The notes under the pieces were generated by a model that saw only the letters and a list, made by a program, of their open reading frames with translations, was not told the origin of the DNA and ran no database searches. Source: Bacteroidota bacterium (GTDB taxonomy: Bacteria; Bacteroidota; Bacteroidia; SXHM01). Taken from it: a stretch of 64,000 nt of DNA. Shown in pieces: positions 13,017-38,079 of this stretch; the first letter of the stretch is position 1; each line of letters opens with the position of its first letter. Location of the stretch: NCBI GenBank assembly GCA_947479755.1, contig CANKAM010000002.1, positions 101,324 through 165,323 of the forward strand, in the 5' to 3' direction. The translations under genes and the position numbers were made by a program.

Positions 13017-13060
13017 GCCTCACCCCCTGCCCCTCTCCGAGGGAGAGGGGAGCAGAGGGC
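13017..13060. repeat. Dispersed palindromic repeat of GCCTCACCC..CCTCTCC..GGAGAGGG type
   Basis: gcctcaccccctgcccctctccgagggagaggggagcagagggc; related copies near 14116 and 32232. Confidence 0.7.
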
Positions 13061-13091: not shown

Positions 13092-13607
13092 ATGGCACTT
13101 ATAAAACCTGTAAAAGGAATTGAACCCAAGTTTGGCAACAACTGCTACTTAGCCGAAAACGCAACCGTGGTAGGCGATGTGGTAATGGGTGACGAATGCA
13201 GTGTGTGGTTTAATGCCGTGGTGCGCGGTGATGTGCATTACATCCGCATGGGCAATCGGGTGAATGTGCAGGACGGTGCGGTTATCCATTGCACCTACAA
13301 AAAAGCAGCAACTACCATCGGCAATAATGTATCCATCGGGCACAATGCGTTGGTGCATGGCTGCACGGTAAAAGACAATGTGCTGATTGGCATGGGTGCT
13401 ATTGTAATGGATAATGTTGTGGTGGAAGAAAACAGCATCATAGCTGCCGGTGCGGTGGTTCTGGAAAACACGCATGTGGAGAGCGGCTGCATCTATGCCG
13501 GTGTTCCTGCCAAAAAAGTAAAAACCTTAAATGCCGAACAAACCGCTACCCTTATTAAAGGCATTGCCGAAAACTATGTGATGTATTCAGGGTGGTTTAG
13601 AGACTAA
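13092..13607 (+). CDS. Gamma carbonic anhydrase family (left-handed beta-helix hexapeptide) protein
   Basis: VVGDVVMGDECSVWFNAVVRGDVHYIRMGNRVNVQDGAVIHC; hexapeptide repeats. Confidence 0.92.
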   Translation: MALIKPVKGIEPKFGNNCYLAENATVVGDVVMGDECSVWFNAVVRGDVHYIRMGNRVNVQDGAVIHCTYKKAATTIGNNVSIGHNALVHGCTVKDNVLIGMGAIVMDNVVVEENSIIAAGAVVLENTHVESGCIYAGVPAKKVKTLNAEQTATLIKGIAENYVMYSGWFRD

Positions 13608-13671
13608 GCAATGATGTTACCCTTATAGGGGTTAGGGTGTAAAAATAATTTCAGCAAATCCTTAGCACCTC

Positions 13672-14091
13672 CATTTGGGTTCCAAAAGGAGGTTTGGGTG
13701 GACAAGGAATTCTCATTTTGGTTTCAAAATGCACTTTCCATGGAAGGTTAAACCCCGTTTTGAAACCCAAATACGCTTTCCAAACTATTGGAGCAGCTAT
13801 TTTGAAATCAAAATGCACTTTCATCCGAGGAGAAAACATCATTTTGAAACCAAAATGCAGTTTCCATAAAGAGAGAAACATCATTTTGAAATCAAAATGC
13901 ACTTTTACCCGAGGAGAAAACCTCATTTTGAAACCAAAATGCACTTTCCGTGGAGTGAAAACCCCCATTTTGAAACCCAAATAGCCGATCTAAGGATTCG
14001 GAAACCTCATTTTGAAATCAAAATGCACTTTCCATGGAGGGGTAAACCCAATTTGTAAATCCAAATAATCGATCTACGGCTATATTAACCG
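13672..14091. repeat. Tandem array, strict 42-bp period, about 10 units, palindromic core CATTTTGAAATCAAAATGCAC
   Basis: Core starts counted at 13672, 13714, 13756, 13798, 13840, 13882, 13924, 13966, 14008, 14050 (all 42 bp apart). Confidence 0.95.
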
Positions 14092-14115: not shown

Positions 14116-14160
14116 TAGCAAAGCCCTCTCCGCCTGAGGCGGAAGGGTTTGAGTGGGGTG
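14116..14160. repeat. Related dispersed CCCTCTCC..-type repeat
   Basis: gcaaagccctctccgcctgaggcggaagggtttgagtggggtgg. Confidence 0.5.
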
Positions 14161-14165
14161 GTCTT

Positions 14166-17100
14166 TTACTGCGCCAGTGTAAACCTCAACGCTATCCCCG
14201 CATTGGTATTGTCGGTAGGGAAGGAAGAAGAGATAACCGGCTTGGTAATAATCCGGTCGTAGAAAGCGCGGATGTTAAAGCGCGGGCTCAGCACATAGTC
14301 AGCCGAGAATTTAATGGTGGTCAGTTTTTGTCCGGCCGTTGGCTGGTTTACATCGTCCTCAATTTTGCGGATAATGGTTCGGTTGTCGCGTATGCTTAAA
14401 TCAACACGCACGTTTACATCACTAACCGGTTTCTTTTTGCCTTTAGCCAACTTGATAGGGAACTTCACATTCTTGAAACGGTAGCCCAATCCCATCACCC
14501 ACTCCTCACTTTTTATTTCGGTTACTTGTGTGTTTACCATACTTAATGAAAGTGTACGGCTTTTCTTCAACTCAAATTTGGCAATCAGGCTGTTGTTAAA
14601 CGTCATGTCAATACCAATAAAGGGACTGAATTGCTCTGAAATAGTAATGGTTTGTATGGTGCGTTGCGGAATAAAATTCTGGCTCGAATCTAATCCGTTG
14701 TTCGCAGGGTTATAGTTAAGGTTAGTCATCCATGACGAAACCGCGTAGGTAGAACGGTAGGCATGACTGAATACAATGGACTTAAATATTTTCTTCATGA
14801 AGGGAAGTTTGCCCAACCCGTCATACTTGGCACTCCAGTTTATTTTAGGCATTGCCGGGAAGGGCGACAACCCTATTTTATTGACATCCGTTTTAGAATA
14901 AGCAGCAAGGAAGGCAGGAATTAAAACATCCTGCGAAGTTTGAGTATAACCAATCGGGAAGCCTTCTGAGTTTACTCCGGATGAACCATTGATAGCTGCA
15001 ATCCGGTCGGCAATAGGTTTGCGGTTAGCGCGCAATTGCTCAAACGCTGCCGAAGTAAAATCATCGCTATTGCCCTCAAATGCAGTACCGAAGGTGTTCC
15101 ACGAAACGCTGTAACTACCATTGGTCATAGGGCTGTTGGAACGGAAATCCTGCAACGTATCAATCCACTGGAAAAACTCGCTGTGGTTTTCGGTTTCGCT
15201 GTAATTCATGGTCAGGTCAACCTTCAGGTTGGGCAAAGGTTCAACCGTAGCCCTGCCGTTCCAGGTAATGGCTTTGGTGGTAATGTATTGTCCGCTTACA
15301 ATATCACTTTGGCTGAGCCAGTTGTTATCCCTTGCGCGGTAGCGTATATCGTTCTGGCTTCCGAAAATAAAATCCCAGCCCGGAGCCATTCTGTCACCCC
15401 AGTCCATACCCATGTAATCCGTTTGAGGACGATAGCCCGGCAACACCGTACCGTTGGTTTGATTGTAAGTGAACGAAGCATTTTTAACCGAAATCAGCAG
15501 GCGCGAAAAGGTGATACCAATACCATCCAGAACCTTAGGCGGGTCTTTAGGTGCTTTAAGTGAATCGGGAACCGGAGCCTTAGGATCTTTAGGCTTGGGC
15601 TTAGGTGCGGGCTTGTTAGACTGCGGCTGTCCTGCACGTTTAAAGTATTTTACCTTGTTGTAAAGCTGTGTAAAGTTCAGGTTTACATTTCCTGTTTTGG
15701 TGTTGGAGTTGGAGATGGTATTACCCAGACTTAATGCCGCCAGCGAAGCAGCGTTCCACATATAGGTAGAAGAGTAGCCTACGTTGGAGTTTATGAAATC
15801 AAAGATAGGCAGCTTGTTAATAGGCAAGGCATAGGTAACGTTGGTAGCATTTTGATACATAACCGTTCTTCCTCCGGTCTGCACGTTGTTCCACACACTG
15901 TCTTTCCAGTAATCGTAACCTTCTTTGTCATCTTTATCCACCTTGCCGGGAGGCTCGTCAATACGGGCATTGTTGGTGGCGGTGAAATCTATTTTAAGTG
16001 CCTTGGTCAAATCATACTTAAAGGTGTAATATCGGTTCCACAGAAATGATTTGTTGTACGTAGCATCAATAATCAAATCATCGGTAGTGGTGTTGCGCAG
16101 TTTCTGTTCGGCATAATCGCGGAGCACATCGTTACGCACACCAAAGTTGCTGGGCAGGTAATTGAAGTTGAAATCTTTTATCGGTTTCAGGTAGCCCGAC
16201 TTAAAGTATCGGTCCGATGCCTTTACAAAGCGGTCTTTTTTCCTGGTGCGCAATGCCAGCTCGTCTTCCGCTTCTTTCAATGCCGAAGGTTTTTTATTGT
16301 CTTTCTTCAAACTGTCAACAACGGCTTTGGCATCTTTTTCCTTTTTCTTCTTGTGTTCAATAATGCTGTCCGAAATCTTTTTCATGATTTTCAGCTTCGC
16401 AAAAGGGCGCACGTTCTTAGGGTTAGGATTGTAGGCATAGTTGAGCGAGCCCCGATGCGACTTATCATTATTGAGCTCGTAATTAATGTCGCGGCTTTCC
16501 ATTTCGGTATAAGCATACGTTGCCGAAAAATTAGAAATGTCAATCGGTGTCGGGAACCCAATACCCTTGCCCCGCGTTCGCATCACGTTACTGAAGTTCA
16601 GACTTTGCCGCTTTACATAGCCCTGCGCAATTTCTTTTACCCGTGCCTGTTCGTCAGGAGTTTCATTTTTCAACTCAATATCCGGGTTCAGCGGGTTGTA
16701 GTGCGGATTGCTGAACGACTCGGAAATACTGTAGAACATCGGCAGTTTCACGCCAATCTTTTGCGGAATAAATTTGTCGAGGGCAACGGTAGTGGCAATA
16801 TCGTAACCCACACTGTCGGTCCAGCTGCGCTGGTTCAATTTTTCGTGTACCTGTCCCCAGCCAAAGGTGTGCAAACCTGTACCTATGTTTACGGTTGCAA
16901 AATCAGCAAGCGTAATTTTTGCCTGCAGTCGCGCTGCCGAGCCACTCTCATTATTGAAATCGGTAAGGCGCATTTCATTCACCCATATCTCGGCACATTT
17001 TTCTTTGCCGTCATCGGCATTTGGGTTTGATGCCTTAGGCGGGTTGCGGATACCAATCATGGCGGTGCGCACATTGGCAAGGTTGGGGTTACCCACAATG

Positions 17101-20100
17101 GTAATTCTGTTATCGGGCTTATTAGGGTCGAAGGTGTAAAAAGGCTGCACCTGCGGAACGCCATTTGCTGTGCGCTCCTGCTTGGCTGCAAGCAGTACCT
17201 CAAACGGGAAATCAAAGAAATTGGAATCAGGCCATATTTTGGTGGAGTCGATACCGGGGTCGCCAAGTGGCGTAAACTTTAATGGTATCTCGTACTCGTA
17301 ATAGTTGTTTACATAATCTGTTCCGAAACGGATAAAGCAGGTAAGGTCGCCATCGTTCACAATCTCTTCTCCACGCTGTTCTGCGTGTACAAACATTTTA
17401 AAGCGTTTGTATCTGCGCACATCAAACTGCACATTTTTAAAAGCTGCACGGGCATCACCATCATTCAGTCCGCATACACGCAATGAAAGCGATTGCTCGT
17501 TCAGCTGGCGCAGTGTGTTACTGTTACCCTGATTGATTTGCTGACGCTGAATTCCGGGAGGCAGTTTATAATTGATAGGAATACGGTTTGAGTTCTGCTC
17601 AATGTTTACCGCACCCACATCAAACTCGGTATCATCGCTGTTATCAACGGGAACATACTCACCCGGCTCCAGTAACGAAAAATCATAAGGGCGCCATTCA
17701 CCGCGCACCAGTTCCATTTTGGCAAAACGGCAAACAACGCTGTCTTCAAAACCGCGCATAAACAAACGCATGAAACGGATGGAACGGAAATCAGAAATAC
17801 TGCCCACCACTTTATCGGGCTGACGAACCGGAATACGAAACTGATACCAGGTAACTTCATTGCTTTGCCCGTTCAGCAAAGGAGGATTTACCGTAATCTT
17901 ATCGGTGATGTAGTTTTGTCCCACCACCATGTCCTGCGGGCGCAGACTGACTTTGTACTGGTAATACGTTTCCGATTCACTCAGTGTATTGTCTTTGTTT
18001 ACATCCTCAGCATTGGGAACTGTTGTTGCCGAAGTAGGGAAATCTTCGTTGGCAGATTCAGAAGCGGGTGAGTTACCCTCAAGATTGTTGTATTCTTTAT
18101 AGCGCCATAAAATAGAACGTTGTTCCGCATCGTATGTATCGTTGCGATAAAAAGTATAATCGTCTGAAGAGGGATCGCTAATTGCTTTGGTATAGGCTTC
18201 GGAATTCATTCCGTAAAGCGTAACTACTTCATCAAGGTATTGTTGTTTGAAAAATGTATTCTCTGCTGTATCAATTAAACCATCCAGACCAATATCCTGG
18301 TAAGGGCGCGAAGCAGGGTCGTTGTCAAAAGCGTTTACAATCTGCTGCACGTTGGGAACAATTCCCCAGGCGGTTGTGTCGGTCGAATTTCCGTTAGTAG
18401 GTGCGGGCAACCCGTTTTCAAAGGCTTTGCGTGAGTCGCGCAAAATATCTTCCGAAGTATTTCCAAGGTTCATATAAAAATCACCACCGGTAGTGTTCAT
18501 CTGATTTACACCATCTGCTAAAGCAAACGGGTCCATCATCCAGAACTGAACAAACTGAATGTTGGCCGCTTCAAAATCGTTAGGGTCAATTTTGCGCATG
18601 ATACCTCCCCAGCGCGATTCCGGATCGTTAAGCAATCCCGCAGAGTTGATACCCGCTGAACTTACAAATCCGCTTTGCGGTTTCGAGTCAAAATTGTAAG
18701 GACCTTTTTCTCTTGGATAATACGCCAAATCAAAAACGGTAAGCGCATTAATTTGTCCTGCCGCCACCTGTTGGTTAGGGAACACTTCGGTTACCTGAAC
18801 CATACGGGTAAAGTGATTACTCTGGTCGTCTTTGGTAATGTGGTCGGGTGTTAACTGGTTTCCATCCTGAATAAATAAAGGGTCAATGATGTACCAGGCA
18901 AGTTTCGCGCGGTTCATACCGTAGCGCAAATCGTTGGAGAGGCTTGCCTCGGGGAACAAATCAGGCTGCCCCTGCGGAGTTGAAGCAATACTCCAGGCTT
19001 GCACGTTTTTGATGTCAATGAGGGTTTGGGTTCCTTCAAAATCATCCATATATGAAATGGCACTTCCGTCATCCTCTTGAATTGCCCTTGCATTGCCCGG
19101 AAGCAGTTGCGCAAACTCTCCGTTCACCGCAATGCTGGAAGGAGCTTTGGTATTGATGAGCGGAATTTTGTCAACCAGTTTGGTGAGCAAACGCGATTCT
19201 TTTCTCCAACTTCCGTCCAATCCCCAGATGCTGTTTGCGATCGGCTCATCACCAATGTTTACTTTTTGAGTAAGCGGGCGCTCATTCATGTGCATGAAGG
19301 TTCCGCCCAATCTGAAATCTTTGTTAATCGTGTAATCTAAATGTGTTCCATACAAGGTTTTGGTTTGTATGTTGAACATACTCTGACTCTCCAAGTTAAT
19401 GCTGATAGGAGTTCCTGCATTCAGAATACTCTGGTTGATGATTTTTACACGACCCAGTGTGTAGTCAACGGTGTAGTCAGCGCCTTCGGTCAATGTTGTT
19501 CCGCCTGCAGTAACGCTTACCGAACCTTGGGGAACGTTAATCGCATTCAGCGGAATCTCTGAACCCGATTCGGATTTATAACTTCCGGAAATTAAGAAGC
19601 GGTTGAGTTGCGGCTGCTGAACGGCTTTCTGGTGGGTGGAGTCATACAGTATCTGGTAATCAAACTGGTCGGCCAGTTCGGGGTGAGGACCTGCTAAAAT
19701 CTGCTGGCGCAAATGACTTCCGAATGGTTCTACAACCGGTAAAAAAATTCTTCCCGTTTGTGAGTTGATGGTTAAGCCTTCCACATAATCAAAGAAGCCA
19801 TCAGGAACAGGATCGTTGTTTACGTTCAGCTTGTCCACGTTCATTACCTTCAACAGGATTTTGCTGCCGCCTTGCCCGTCAGCGTTAACAATGGCTTCGT
19901 TGGGCAGGTAGTTCAGTCGCGTACCGCTGGCAAAGTTGTCGTACAATATATTCAGTGTAAAATCTTCGCGGTTCAGTTGGTAAGCACCTAATGAGTAAAC
20001 GTTTTTCATCATCCAGTCCCACATCGGCAAACGGGTGTTGAGTGTGGTACTCTTCAGCATTTTAAGGATAAGCGCACTGGGTGAGGCAATACCATCGGTT

Positions 20101-21611
20101 GAAAATTCACCCACCTGGTAAGTTGTTCCGTTCAGAGTGTATTGGAAAGCTACGGCAAGCACCTCATCCGCATTCAGCGGGGTGCTTAATGAGATGTAAC
20201 CAAGTCGGGTGTTAACCGTGTATTCAGAGTTTTCGGTAAGTTTTCGGGCATTTTCAATTACCTCGTAATCGCGCGAGTTTTGCAGGCCTGTGCTGAGAAG
20301 TGTACTTGTAATCTGATTGATGTTACGTATGGCAGAATAGGTAGAGGTAAGTTTACTGTAAAGGTTGTTGTTGTTATTGAAAGGGTAAGGTCCGCCCTGA
20401 TTGTTTTGAATAAAGGTTTGTCCGTCAGGATATTTTGAATTGTAAACAGCTATGTTTTCGCCCAGACCCTGGAATGGAACAATGTTTCTGGTGTTATCGA
20501 ATATGGAGGTTTTGTTGGTTACATACACTTCCACTCTCGTAATGATTGCGTTGGACGAAACAATAGGCAGATTTGCCAAAGCCACATCGTAATTGCTGCG
20601 AAAATACTCGGCAAGGAAATAGTGTTTGTTGGCTTCGTAATTATCGCCTTTGACCTCAAACTTGGTAACCTGTGCACCGCCCTGCACATCTATGGTTTGA
20701 GATTTACCACGCTGTTGCGAGAAGATGCCGGTAACGGTAAGTCTTCCGAATTTCAATGCTGTTTTTATACCAAACAAACTCTGGCTTCCCTGAATAAGAC
20801 TTCCTGTTAGCGGCAGATTTACGTTACCTGCTTCAATCAACTGAATGATATCGTCTTCCTCGCCCTGATAAGCCAGTTTCATCTGGTTGTCGAAGTCAAA
20901 GGTGGCTTCGGTATTGTAAGAAGTGGTGAGTTTCATTTTGCAACCGATGTTTCCGGTTACATTCATCTGAATCTTCTGGTCGAAATTGAAGGTGGTGTTT
21001 TTGCGCTGACGGATTGGAAGCGCTGGGTTGTTTACCTTGGAAGTGTTCCACCCGAAAATCAACTCGGCAGAACCCTGGGGTTTTATTTCAATAGGGCAAT
21101 CACCAAAAATTTTATCAAGCACTTTGCTGTTGATGTTCAGTTTTGGTATCAGTGGTTTTTTAGCGTTGGCGCTTTCTTCTGCTGAGCGCGATTCCCAGTA
21201 TTCCTGCTCCTGCTTTTCTGATACATATCGCTGATACTCATCAAAGGTCATGTAGGTGGGTGGCTTGGTGTTTTGTCCGCCTACTGTTTCGGTAATGATG
21301 TAAGTGTTGGTTTCGGGATCGTACTCCACATTGGTCTCCACGTTTGAAGGGTTTGCCATTTGCAGACTCGGTGTACTATCGTTTCCGGGTTGCGGAGCAT
21401 AATTATCGGAGAAAGGATATTTGAGGGTATCAACGGGAGGCGTATCTACGAGAAAGATTTCGGGTTCGATTGTTAAACTCAACGCAGAAGAAGCTTCGGC
21501 AATTTCAAAAAGCATTTCTTCTGGAAGCACAGCCGCGCCCGAGAACCAAACCACAGGCAGCAGGGCAATAACAGGAGCAAAACGAAGAATGTTTTTTGAA
21601 AGTGGTTTCAA
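14166..21611 (-). CDS. sprA: Cell surface protein SprA (type IX secretion translocon)
   Basis: 2481 aa; size and sequence (PAPYDQVFD-like SprA blocks, SGSYKSESGSEIPL, SISYMDDFEGTQ) consistent with SprA/Sov. Confidence 0.93.
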   Translation of the reverse strand: MKPLSKNILRFAPVIALLPVVWFSGAAVLPEEMLFEIAEASSALSLTIEPEIFLVDTPPVDTLKYPFSDNYAPQPGNDSTPSLQMANPSNVETNVEYDPETNTYIITETVGGQNTKPPTYMTFDEYQRYVSEKQEQEYWESRSAEESANAKKPLIPKLNINSKVLDKIFGDCPIEIKPQGSAELIFGWNTSKVNNPALPIRQRKNTTFNFDQKIQMNVTGNIGCKMKLTTSYNTEATFDFDNQMKLAYQGEEDDIIQLIEAGNVNLPLTGSLIQGSQSLFGIKTALKFGRLTVTGIFSQQRGKSQTIDVQGGAQVTKFEVKGDNYEANKHYFLAEYFRSNYDVALANLPIVSSNAIITRVEVYVTNKTSIFDNTRNIVPFQGLGENIAVYNSKYPDGQTFIQNNQGGPYPFNNNNNLYSKLTSTYSAIRNINQITSTLLSTGLQNSRDYEVIENARKLTENSEYTVNTRLGYISLSTPLNADEVLAVAFQYTLNGTTYQVGEFSTDGIASPSALILKMLKSTTLNTRLPMWDWMMKNVYSLGAYQLNREDFTLNILYDNFASGTRLNYLPNEAIVNADGQGGSKILLKVMNVDKLNVNNDPVPDGFFDYVEGLTINSQTGRIFLPVVEPFGSHLRQQILAGPHPELADQFDYQILYDSTHQKAVQQPQLNRFLISGSYKSESGSEIPLNAINVPQGSVSVTAGGTTLTEGADYTVDYTLGRVKIINQSILNAGTPISINLESQSMFNIQTKTLYGTHLDYTINKDFRLGGTFMHMNERPLTQKVNIGDEPIANSIWGLDGSWRKESRLLTKLVDKIPLINTKAPSSIAVNGEFAQLLPGNARAIQEDDGSAISYMDDFEGTQTLIDIKNVQAWSIASTPQGQPDLFPEASLSNDLRYGMNRAKLAWYIIDPLFIQDGNQLTPDHITKDDQSNHFTRMVQVTEVFPNQQVAAGQINALTVFDLAYYPREKGPYNFDSKPQSGFVSSAGINSAGLLNDPESRWGGIMRKIDPNDFEAANIQFVQFWMMDPFALADGVNQMNTTGGDFYMNLGNTSEDILRDSRKAFENGLPAPTNGNSTDTTAWGIVPNVQQIVNAFDNDPASRPYQDIGLDGLIDTAENTFFKQQYLDEVVTLYGMNSEAYTKAISDPSSDDYTFYRNDTYDAEQRSILWRYKEYNNLEGNSPASESANEDFPTSATTVPNAEDVNKDNTLSESETYYQYKVSLRPQDMVVGQNYITDKITVNPPLLNGQSNEVTWYQFRIPVRQPDKVVGSISDFRSIRFMRLFMRGFEDSVVCRFAKMELVRGEWRPYDFSLLEPGEYVPVDNSDDTEFDVGAVNIEQNSNRIPINYKLPPGIQRQQINQGNSNTLRQLNEQSLSLRVCGLNDGDARAAFKNVQFDVRRYKRFKMFVHAEQRGEEIVNDGDLTCFIRFGTDYVNNYYEYEIPLKFTPLGDPGIDSTKIWPDSNFFDFPFEVLLAAKQERTANGVPQVQPFYTFDPNKPDNRITIVGNPNLANVRTAMIGIRNPPKASNPNADDGKEKCAEIWVNEMRLTDFNNESGSAARLQAKITLADFATVNIGTGLHTFGWGQVHEKLNQRSWTDSVGYDIATTVALDKFIPQKIGVKLPMFYSISESFSNPHYNPLNPDIELKNETPDEQARVKEIAQGYVKRQSLNFSNVMRTRGKGIGFPTPIDISNFSATYAYTEMESRDINYELNNDKSHRGSLNYAYNPNPKNVRPFAKLKIMKKISDSIIEHKKKKEKDAKAVVDSLKKDNKKPSALKEAEDELALRTRKKDRFVKASDRYFKSGYLKPIKDFNFNYLPSNFGVRNDVLRDYAEQKLRNTTTDDLIIDATYNKSFLWNRYYTFKYDLTKALKIDFTATNNARIDEPPGKVDKDDKEGYDYWKDSVWNNVQTGGRTVMYQNATNVTYALPINKLPIFDFINSNVGYSSTYMWNAASLAALSLGNTISNSNTKTGNVNLNFTQLYNKVKYFKRAGQPQSNKPAPKPKPKDPKAPVPDSLKAPKDPPKVLDGIGITFSRLLISVKNASFTYNQTNGTVLPGYRPQTDYMGMDWGDRMAPGWDFIFGSQNDIRYRARDNNWLSQSDIVSGQYITTKAITWNGRATVEPLPNLKVDLTMNYSETENHSEFFQWIDTLQDFRSNSPMTNGSYSVSWNTFGTAFEGNSDDFTSAAFEQLRANRKPIADRIAAINGSSGVNSEGFPIGYTQTSQDVLIPAFLAAYSKTDVNKIGLSPFPAMPKINWSAKYDGLGKLPFMKKIFKSIVFSHAYRSTYAVSSWMTNLNYNPANNGLDSSQNFIPQRTIQTITISEQFSPFIGIDMTFNNSLIAKFELKKSRTLSLSMVNTQVTEIKSEEWVMGLGYRFKNVKFPIKLAKGKKKPVSDVNVRVDLSIRDNRTIIRKIEDDVNQPTAGQKLTTIKFSADYVLSPRFNIRAFYDRIITKPVISSSFPTDNTNAGIALRFTLAQ

Positions 21612-36692: not shown

Positions 36693-37007
36693 GCGTTTTC
36701 CGTTCAACCATGTCATTTTCCGTTCAACTACCCCTTTTTCTATCAAAAACCTGCTTTTTACCTCCAAAAGCACTCCTTTCAGAGGTGCGGACACTCCTTT
36801 TGGTAGTGCGGAGGCTCCTTTTACAGGTGCGGACACCCCTTTTACAGGTGCGGAGGCTCCTTTTGGAGGTGCGGACACTCCTTTTTCAAGTGCGGACATT
36901 ACTTTTAAAAGTGATTATGCCTCTTTTTTATGTAAAAAGAATACTTTTTGAAGAAAAAGGATAACTTTTTACAGAAAAGAGCTTCCTTTTGCTAAAAAAT
37001 GTTAAAA
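36693..37007. repeat. Tandem array, strict 21-bp period, about 15 units each opening with a T-tract
   Basis: Unit starts counted every 21 bp from 36693 to 36987; central units TTTTACAGGTGCGGACACCCC/TTTTACAGGTGCGGAGGCTCC. Confidence 0.95.
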
Positions 37008-37113
37008 AACAGCCTCAAAAGTTAAAATCTGTTAAAAACGGGAGGGTGTTTTTAAAACTGACCTGAAAACGCTATTCATTTGTAGCATATAAACCAATTA
37101 ACACTATTTAATT

Positions 37114-38079
37114 ATGAGAAAATCAGAAGTAAAACCAATTTTTAACCAATCGTTTGCCGACCTGATGCAGCTTGGCGACAAAGCAGATGATTTAATGGAG
37201 CGCGATGCCGTAGAACTTCTGCCCTACGGTGTAGATGCCACCTTTCGCAGCGACACGGCTACACTTACCCAAGACCTTAAAGACTTTCCCACCGATGAGG
37301 AGTTGCAAGGTGCAGCAGCTGAACAAACAGAAATCAAAAACGAAAGTGCCGATGTTGTAAAGGTTCTTATTCGTTCAGTAATGGTAAGAGCTAAAAATGC
37401 TTTTGGCGAAAGCAGCGCAAAATACCGCAGGTTTGGCACTAAAGGTTTGGACGAATTAACGGATAATGATTTGCTCAAATGCGGCAAAAGAGTAGTGCGT
37501 ACAGCCACCCTTTTTCAGGTGCCCCTTTCAGCAAAAGGTTTAACTCCCGCTATGATTGCGGCTTTAAACACTAAGGTAACCACCTTTGATGATGACATTG
37601 ATGCACAGGACGATGCCATCCGTCAGCGCGACAATGCTACTGAAGACCGCATTGAACTGGGCAATGCGCTCTACAAAAAAATTACCGAACTCTTTGATTA
37701 CGGTAAGGATTATTGGATAACCCGTGATGAAGCTAAGTACAACGATTACGTTATTTATGACCAGCCCGCAGGCAACGACCTGTTTTTTGATGGCACTATT
37801 GCAGGCATGACCACTGAAAATGTGCTGGACGCAACTGCGGTAGATGAATATCTAGTTGGTGTGCAACTGCGTATAAAAAACACTACAGCAGGACCTGTTA
37901 TTGGAGGTTTGTTTTTCTACACCGCCATGAACCCCGGTGATGGCTGGAGTGGCTTAGGTCAAAACCTGAACCCCGGTCAGGAAGCCACCATTACTTTAGG
38001 TGCAGCAGATTACCGCCCGTATTTTAATATACAAAACCAAGGACCAAATGAGCAGACTTGGGAAGTGGAGATATTATAG
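37114..38079 (+). CDS. Uncharacterised 321-aa protein: helical N-terminal part and beta-rich C-terminal part
   Basis: Long ORF with uniform coding character, ATG after an AT-rich leader, followed by a terminator; no family recognised. Confidence 0.88.
   Translation: MRKSEVKPIFNQSFADLMQLGDKADDLMERDAVELLPYGVDATFRSDTATLTQDLKDFPTDEELQGAAAEQTEIKNESADVVKVLIRSVMVRAKNAFGESSAKYRRFGTKGLDELTDNDLLKCGKRVVRTATLFQVPLSAKGLTPAMIAALNTKVTTFDDDIDAQDDAIRQRDNATEDRIELGNALYKKITELFDYGKDYWITRDEAKYNDYVIYDQPAGNDLFFDGTIAGMTTENVLDATAVDEYLVGVQLRIKNTTAGPVIGGLFFYTAMNPGDGWSGLGQNLNPGQEATITLGAADYRPYFNIQNQGPNEQTWEVEIL

Follow-up and report, generated by a model that had tools for sequence, protein, structure and literature searches.

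A 42-bp tandem array in a convergent gap of a Bacteroidota genome, proposed as an orphaned operator array

The window, the whole stretch of 64,000 nucleotides of a Bacteroidota bacterium that was analysed here, possesses ten tandem 42-bp units (13672..14091, + strand) which can with moderate confidence be regarded as an orphan copy of a putative tandem operator array. The block is a member of a class of non-coding arrays with a common step, many of them placed between the gene of a small DNA-binding protein and one whose function is not known, and for this reason the arrays of the class are probably long strings of protein-binding sites. Small cassettes of the genus have, in order, a small DNA-binding regulator (LytTR, LuxR/GerE-type, Cro/C1-type or similar), some 5 to 22 repeats with a step of 21 or 42 bp, equal to two or four helical turns, and a gene whose predicted product combines a helical part with, in many cases, a beta-sandwich domain of fn3-like or other type. 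In each cassette the regulator would recognise a motif of its own that recurs on one face of the DNA every two or four turns, and binding along the array may bring about cooperative control of the cassette gene. Arrays alone, without their genes, would also be copied into other intergenic places, this being the direction of copying that we infer. The window array would accordingly derive from the array upstream of a cassette gene on contig C67, with which its unit order agrees, and its left end appears to have been turned round by an inversion through the palindromic core. If the arrays prove to be operators, each genome would carry dozens of insulated regulator-operator-effector cassettes with many-site operators and no common consensus, an unusual regulatory design and a potential test bed for regulator specificity and the co-evolution of regulators with site arrays.

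The window array and its sister array

The units start at 13672, 13714 and so on to 14050 with a step of exactly 42 bp, and have the core CATTTTGAAAYCAAAATG or variants of it. A fuzzy core search returned nine cores with all eight spacings being 42, and TRF gave a period of 42 with 8.5 copies. Self-identity of the array at lag 42 is 0.627, the maximum at any lag in 500 dinucleotide shuffles being 0.375, while at lag 21 it is at chance level (0.311) and the true unit of this array is therefore 42 bp. These results bear out the ten evenly spaced cores described in the first-pass annotation, and its palindromic core (CATTTTG/CAAAATG), second core type (..CAAATA, at 13756, 13966 and 14050) and GATCTA motif (at 13987 and 14071) were likewise recovered. 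The left end of the array (13657..13731, - strand) is an inverted copy of 13924-13998, with 54 of 75 positions identical. This inverted part covers unit 1 and part of unit 2, about 1.5 units, and the register survives the flip because the core is a palindrome.

A genome-wide search with the core, a check suggested at the outset, identified a second 42-bp array of the same family on contig C67 in addition to one chance match. Between the window and C67 the array alone matches and the flanks do not. The colinear block lies at 13756..14007 (+ strand), with units 13756, 13924 and 13966 matching C67 units 3, 7 and 8 at 34-35 of 42 positions, and in both arrays a CCAAACTATTGGA unit stands close to the start and a GATCTAAGGATTCGG unit close to the end. 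The C67 array is located directly upstream of a gene for a 400-aa protein (MPVIKRP...) of unknown function with CarboxypepD_reg domains. Array and gene have orthologues in three relatives (G002, G003 and G004), in which the 42-bp core spacing is kept over 9-11 consecutive units. The spacing had been thought to be either constrained or recently expanded. The exact step at the sister locus in four species supports constraint, as does the recurrence of a 21- or 42-bp step in unrelated arrays throughout the genome. As for expansion, some gain or loss of units has taken place, but the window array was mostly copied as a block, since its unit order is common to the C67 array. Relatives that were assembled separately hold the sister array in exact register, which makes an assembly artefact unlikely.

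The core has a narrow distribution. Among 396 genomes drawn evenly from the phylum it was matched at a 42-bp step in its own genome only, and at a 21-bp step in none. A core search of the GTDB contig collection returned four stretches, namely those of the three relatives and one of another MAG (CANJYB), where a 21-bp version of the same core, with about 18 units, precedes an fn3-like gene. A phage origin was also considered and rejected, a search of phage records giving no match.

Through the sister arrays of the relatives runs an open frame of 148-187 codons, and the array could on this basis be taken to encode 14-residue repeats (..HFETKMHFPWRRKP..). Such a reading is barely tenable, as the pN/pS of the open frame (0.5-0.7) is within the range of the other frames, with 0.14-0.24 for the neighbouring gene, and the window copy has a stop in this frame. 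In addition, steps of 41, 43 and 22 bp also occur in the class, which argues that it is the helix which is kept rather than the codon or reading frame. A protein-coding tandem repeat was rejected on the finding of no purifying selection in one frame. It should be mentioned that sister arrays with one frame open (FETKM repeat; L021 5435-5881, L053 4399-4905 and L055 3676-4239) could be mis-annotated as a gene. The records of L052 and L055 are titled as a Chitinophaga pinensis MAG; by kinship they are of the same genus as the genome of the window (G000), and the species name may be wrong.

The array class and its neighbouring genes

Self-matches in 464 kb of the genome are strongest at lags of 42, 84, 126 and 21. 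In 862 kb of G000, 31 non-coding arrays were identified, 25 of them on periods of 21n±1 or 41/82 bp (by dominant lag, 23 of the former kind and two of the latter), and in 180 kb of G002 seven of nine arrays have such periods, as against two of nine in ten other Bacteroidota (361 kb together). Densities, which are estimates from sampled genome stretches, are 27-29 per Mb in G000 versus 5.5 per Mb in the ten other Bacteroidota; extrapolation of the former gives an estimated 100 or so arrays for the genome. The coding repeats of G000 have no such period preference. Unit sequences are mostly unrelated between arrays. Of 26 arrays only about 9 have significant palindromes, for which reason the palindrome was rejected as a class-wide feature. 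The clearest case of a site plus spacer is the 21-bp array at L082 3964-4270, next to a Cro/C1-type gene, where about 8-9 bp (TATTAATTG) of the unit stay constant and the remaining 12 are variable.

Neighbour relations were read from ORF lists by inspection and regulators were identified by domain scans. Six of the 15 LytTR genes in the genome (on contigs C1, C59, C13, C45, C29 and C4) have an array directly 3', at a distance of about 110-170 bp, an adjacency with a P of 1.9e-7 if arrays were placed independently. Where the contig continues, a same-strand gene comes next. The step of these arrays is 21 bp in L127, L129 and L109 and 42 bp in L074, L124 and L128. Regulators of other folds adjoin arrays also, these being Cro/C1-type (L119, L090 and L082), GerE-type (L137, L179 and L140, more weakly L138 and L201) and Sigma70_r4-like (L054), and the idea that an array marks LytTR modules only was rejected on these grounds. 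As the identical step occurs beside regulators of different folds, the geometry of LytTR sites alone cannot explain it. The regulator-array-gene arrangement recurs in G451 and G409, which are of other families, and in CANJYB, which is outside the genus.

In many cases an array is followed by a codirectional gene for a helical/fn3-like protein, and often a LytTR, LuxR-type or Cro/C1-type DNA-binding gene adjoins the array. Most downstream proteins have no Pfam family, and no toxin domain was detected in them in Pfam scans; one, modelled with its relatives, is predicted to have a helical bundle and an fn3-type beta-sandwich (mean pLDDT 87, whole model). The convergent setting noted for the window copy at first pass is correct for that copy and atypical otherwise, most sister arrays being found upstream of a gene.

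Two LytTR paralogues with 81% identity have matching arrays, while 9-mers in common are few or absent in almost all other pairs. A TGAAATCAA motif occurs in the arrays of both C67 and C1 (p about 0.0075), and the LytTRs of C67 and C1 are, together with those of C67 and C59, the best-scoring remaining pair. This co-similarity is suggestive of a pairing of regulators with sites; it is not proof of it, because array and gene may have been copied together. A number of features weigh against the operator reading, namely the distance of about 4 kb between the C67 LytTR gene and its array in G000, the existence of several arrays with no regulator gene next door, and the exchange of units in convergent gaps described below. 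In G004, the adjoining stretch read for the C67-type array contains no LytTR or other regulator gene.

Turnover of arrays in convergent gaps

The window array sits between two convergent genes, one gamma-carbonic-anhydrase-like (13092..13607, + strand), a name given at first pass with which the sequence is consistent, and the other sprA (14166..21611, - strand), also named at first pass. Neither of these flanking genes encodes a regulator, and a scan for promoters and terminators at the locus gave counts at shuffle level. By eye, G+C-rich inverted repeats are visible near the flanking-gene ends at 14119-14150 and 13020-13060, the former being absent from the output of the simple terminator scan. 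The gap also retains what appears, with codons read by eye, to be a relic of the last codons (..NDVTLIGVRV and stop) of a SpoIIE-type phosphatase gene (13610..13642, + strand), a gene which is complete at the same place in relative G002 (L098:164-2239).

In G003 and G004 the carbonic-anhydrase-like gene is 96-98% identical, yet the window array is missing from both. The gap has a different array with a step of about 22 bp in G004, two 21-bp copies of another sequence in G003 and a 21-bp array of yet another sequence in G002, while in G005 and G006 there is almost no gap and no array. The window array is thus lineage-specific at its locus. A 1.2-kb stretch of G004 (C112 8349-9549, L182) is identical to G000, with several per cent divergence elsewhere, and is possibly due to cross-contamination between the assemblies; this does not affect the window locus, where G004 and G000 have different sequences.

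Similar turnover was observed in the convergent gap at an ALDH gene, where the arrays of G000, G002 and G005 are unrelated and have a step of 21, 41 or 42 bp, and in that at the end of a 341-aa gene (L122), where the arrays of G000 and G002 are unrelated and likewise have such a step. In all three convergent gaps examined, the unit sequence changes between species and the step (21, 41 or 42 bp) persists. Orphan arrays in convergent gaps are paralogous to cassette arrays in three pairs (window/C67, L080/L081 and L112/C32).

Retention of the step with exchange of the unit fits a structural role as well, in which the two-turn step would matter rather than the unit, with a nucleoid protein or DNA shape organising or insulating gaps and units being swappable. 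The presence of arrays beside regulators of several folds is also in keeping with this. We nevertheless consider it rather unlikely, as units are alike within an array and, at the sister locus, are conserved from one species to another, which pure geometry would not need, and the window gap has no array in two species. The A/T tracts of the window unit are, furthermore, unevenly phased in the column table, and bending by A-tracts was rejected on that account. Should the two-turn step outlast replacement of the sequence, the geometry of the DNA itself would seem to be under selection.

The same orphan copies, together with the inverted segment, the varying unit numbers, the lineage-specific presence and an array divergence faster than that of the neighbouring gene, are what would be expected of a mutational by-product, with a replication or repair process of the lineage making and spreading tandem duplications close to 21 or 42 bp in length and most arrays, that of the window among them, having no function. 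This appears improbable given the non-random position of the arrays, next to regulator genes and ahead of genes of one kind, and the register held over 9-11 units in four species. To our knowledge, no process with a 21-bp step has been described.

Returning to tandem operators, the window copy is upstream of no gene, so that it may be a decoy or an insulator or have no function; most likely it is neutral or a decoy taking up regulator. A broader proposal, put forward tentatively and held to be possible though doubtful, is that of a lineage-wide system with completely replaceable units and a persistent two-turn step, paired with regulators of its arrays' own and with a large number of helical/fn3-like proteins, in which array copies in convergent gaps would act as decoys or insulators.

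Comparison with known repeat systems

LytTR sites have no common consensus and are made up of two repeats, direct or inverse, each 9-11 nt long and separated by 11-13 nt (PMC4847170). For CoxC, binding is to three repeats spaced two turns apart (PMC11347149). Like the LytTR-type operators (YpdB/PyhjX, CoxC/PcoxB and RcoM), the arrays described here have repeats at about two turns, no common consensus and often a regulator gene close by, a LytTR gene in six cases, although the window array itself has the 42-bp step only and no regulator gene next to it. However, the known operators have two or three repeats, whereas the putative sites here number about 5 to 22 per array, and their step is also common to arrays beside HTH regulators.

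The arrays resemble REP/BIME elements in being intergenic and palindromic, with copies in convergent gaps. REP elements are, however, many dispersed copies of one sequence, whereas here each array is a tandem of its own sequence with one or two arrays observed per family, and membership was rejected for the window core, which occurs in two arrays only plus the one chance match. With iterons and plasmid centromere arrays they have in common tandem protein-binding sites (putative here), often on a helical step. They differ from these in the many unrelated arrays per genome and in that no replication or partition gene is found among the listed neighbours, with the exception of a parA-like gene downstream of the array at L122:11412. 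A CRISPR array was also rejected, as units are degenerate, inter-core stretches recur between arrays, and the flanks are metabolic genes and sprA.

Like the repeat RNAs of type III toxin-antitoxin loci, an array is often followed directly by a codirectional gene, and the arrays could accordingly be transcribed as tandem hairpins, as had been raised for the window. The window array does fold better than its shuffles on both strands (z of -8.3 and -4.6). Nevertheless, an RNA element is very unlikely. The stem has no compensatory base-pair changes, palindromes are infrequent in the class as given above, no Rfam match was obtained at the gathering score, and a helical step serves no purpose for RNA. 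Unlike the toxin-antitoxin loci, the class also has this step fixed and downstream proteins which, judged by the one modelled, are of helical and fn3-like type and not evidently a ToxN-fold RNase, and the window copy lies in a convergent gap with a promoter signal not above chance. A structured tandem-hairpin RNA was rejected on the lack of compensatory changes and of an Rfam family.

No description of such arrays was found in a search of the open-access literature on these arrays, LytTR sites and operator arrays. The window itself contains a second array of the class, with a 21-bp step and the unrelated unit CTCCTTTTACAGGTGCGGACA (36694..37050, + strand). Directly 3' of it is a gene of unknown family (37114..38079, + strand) encoding a 321-aa protein (MRKSEVKPIF...), the C-terminal part of which resembles, by eye, that of the L087 cassette protein.
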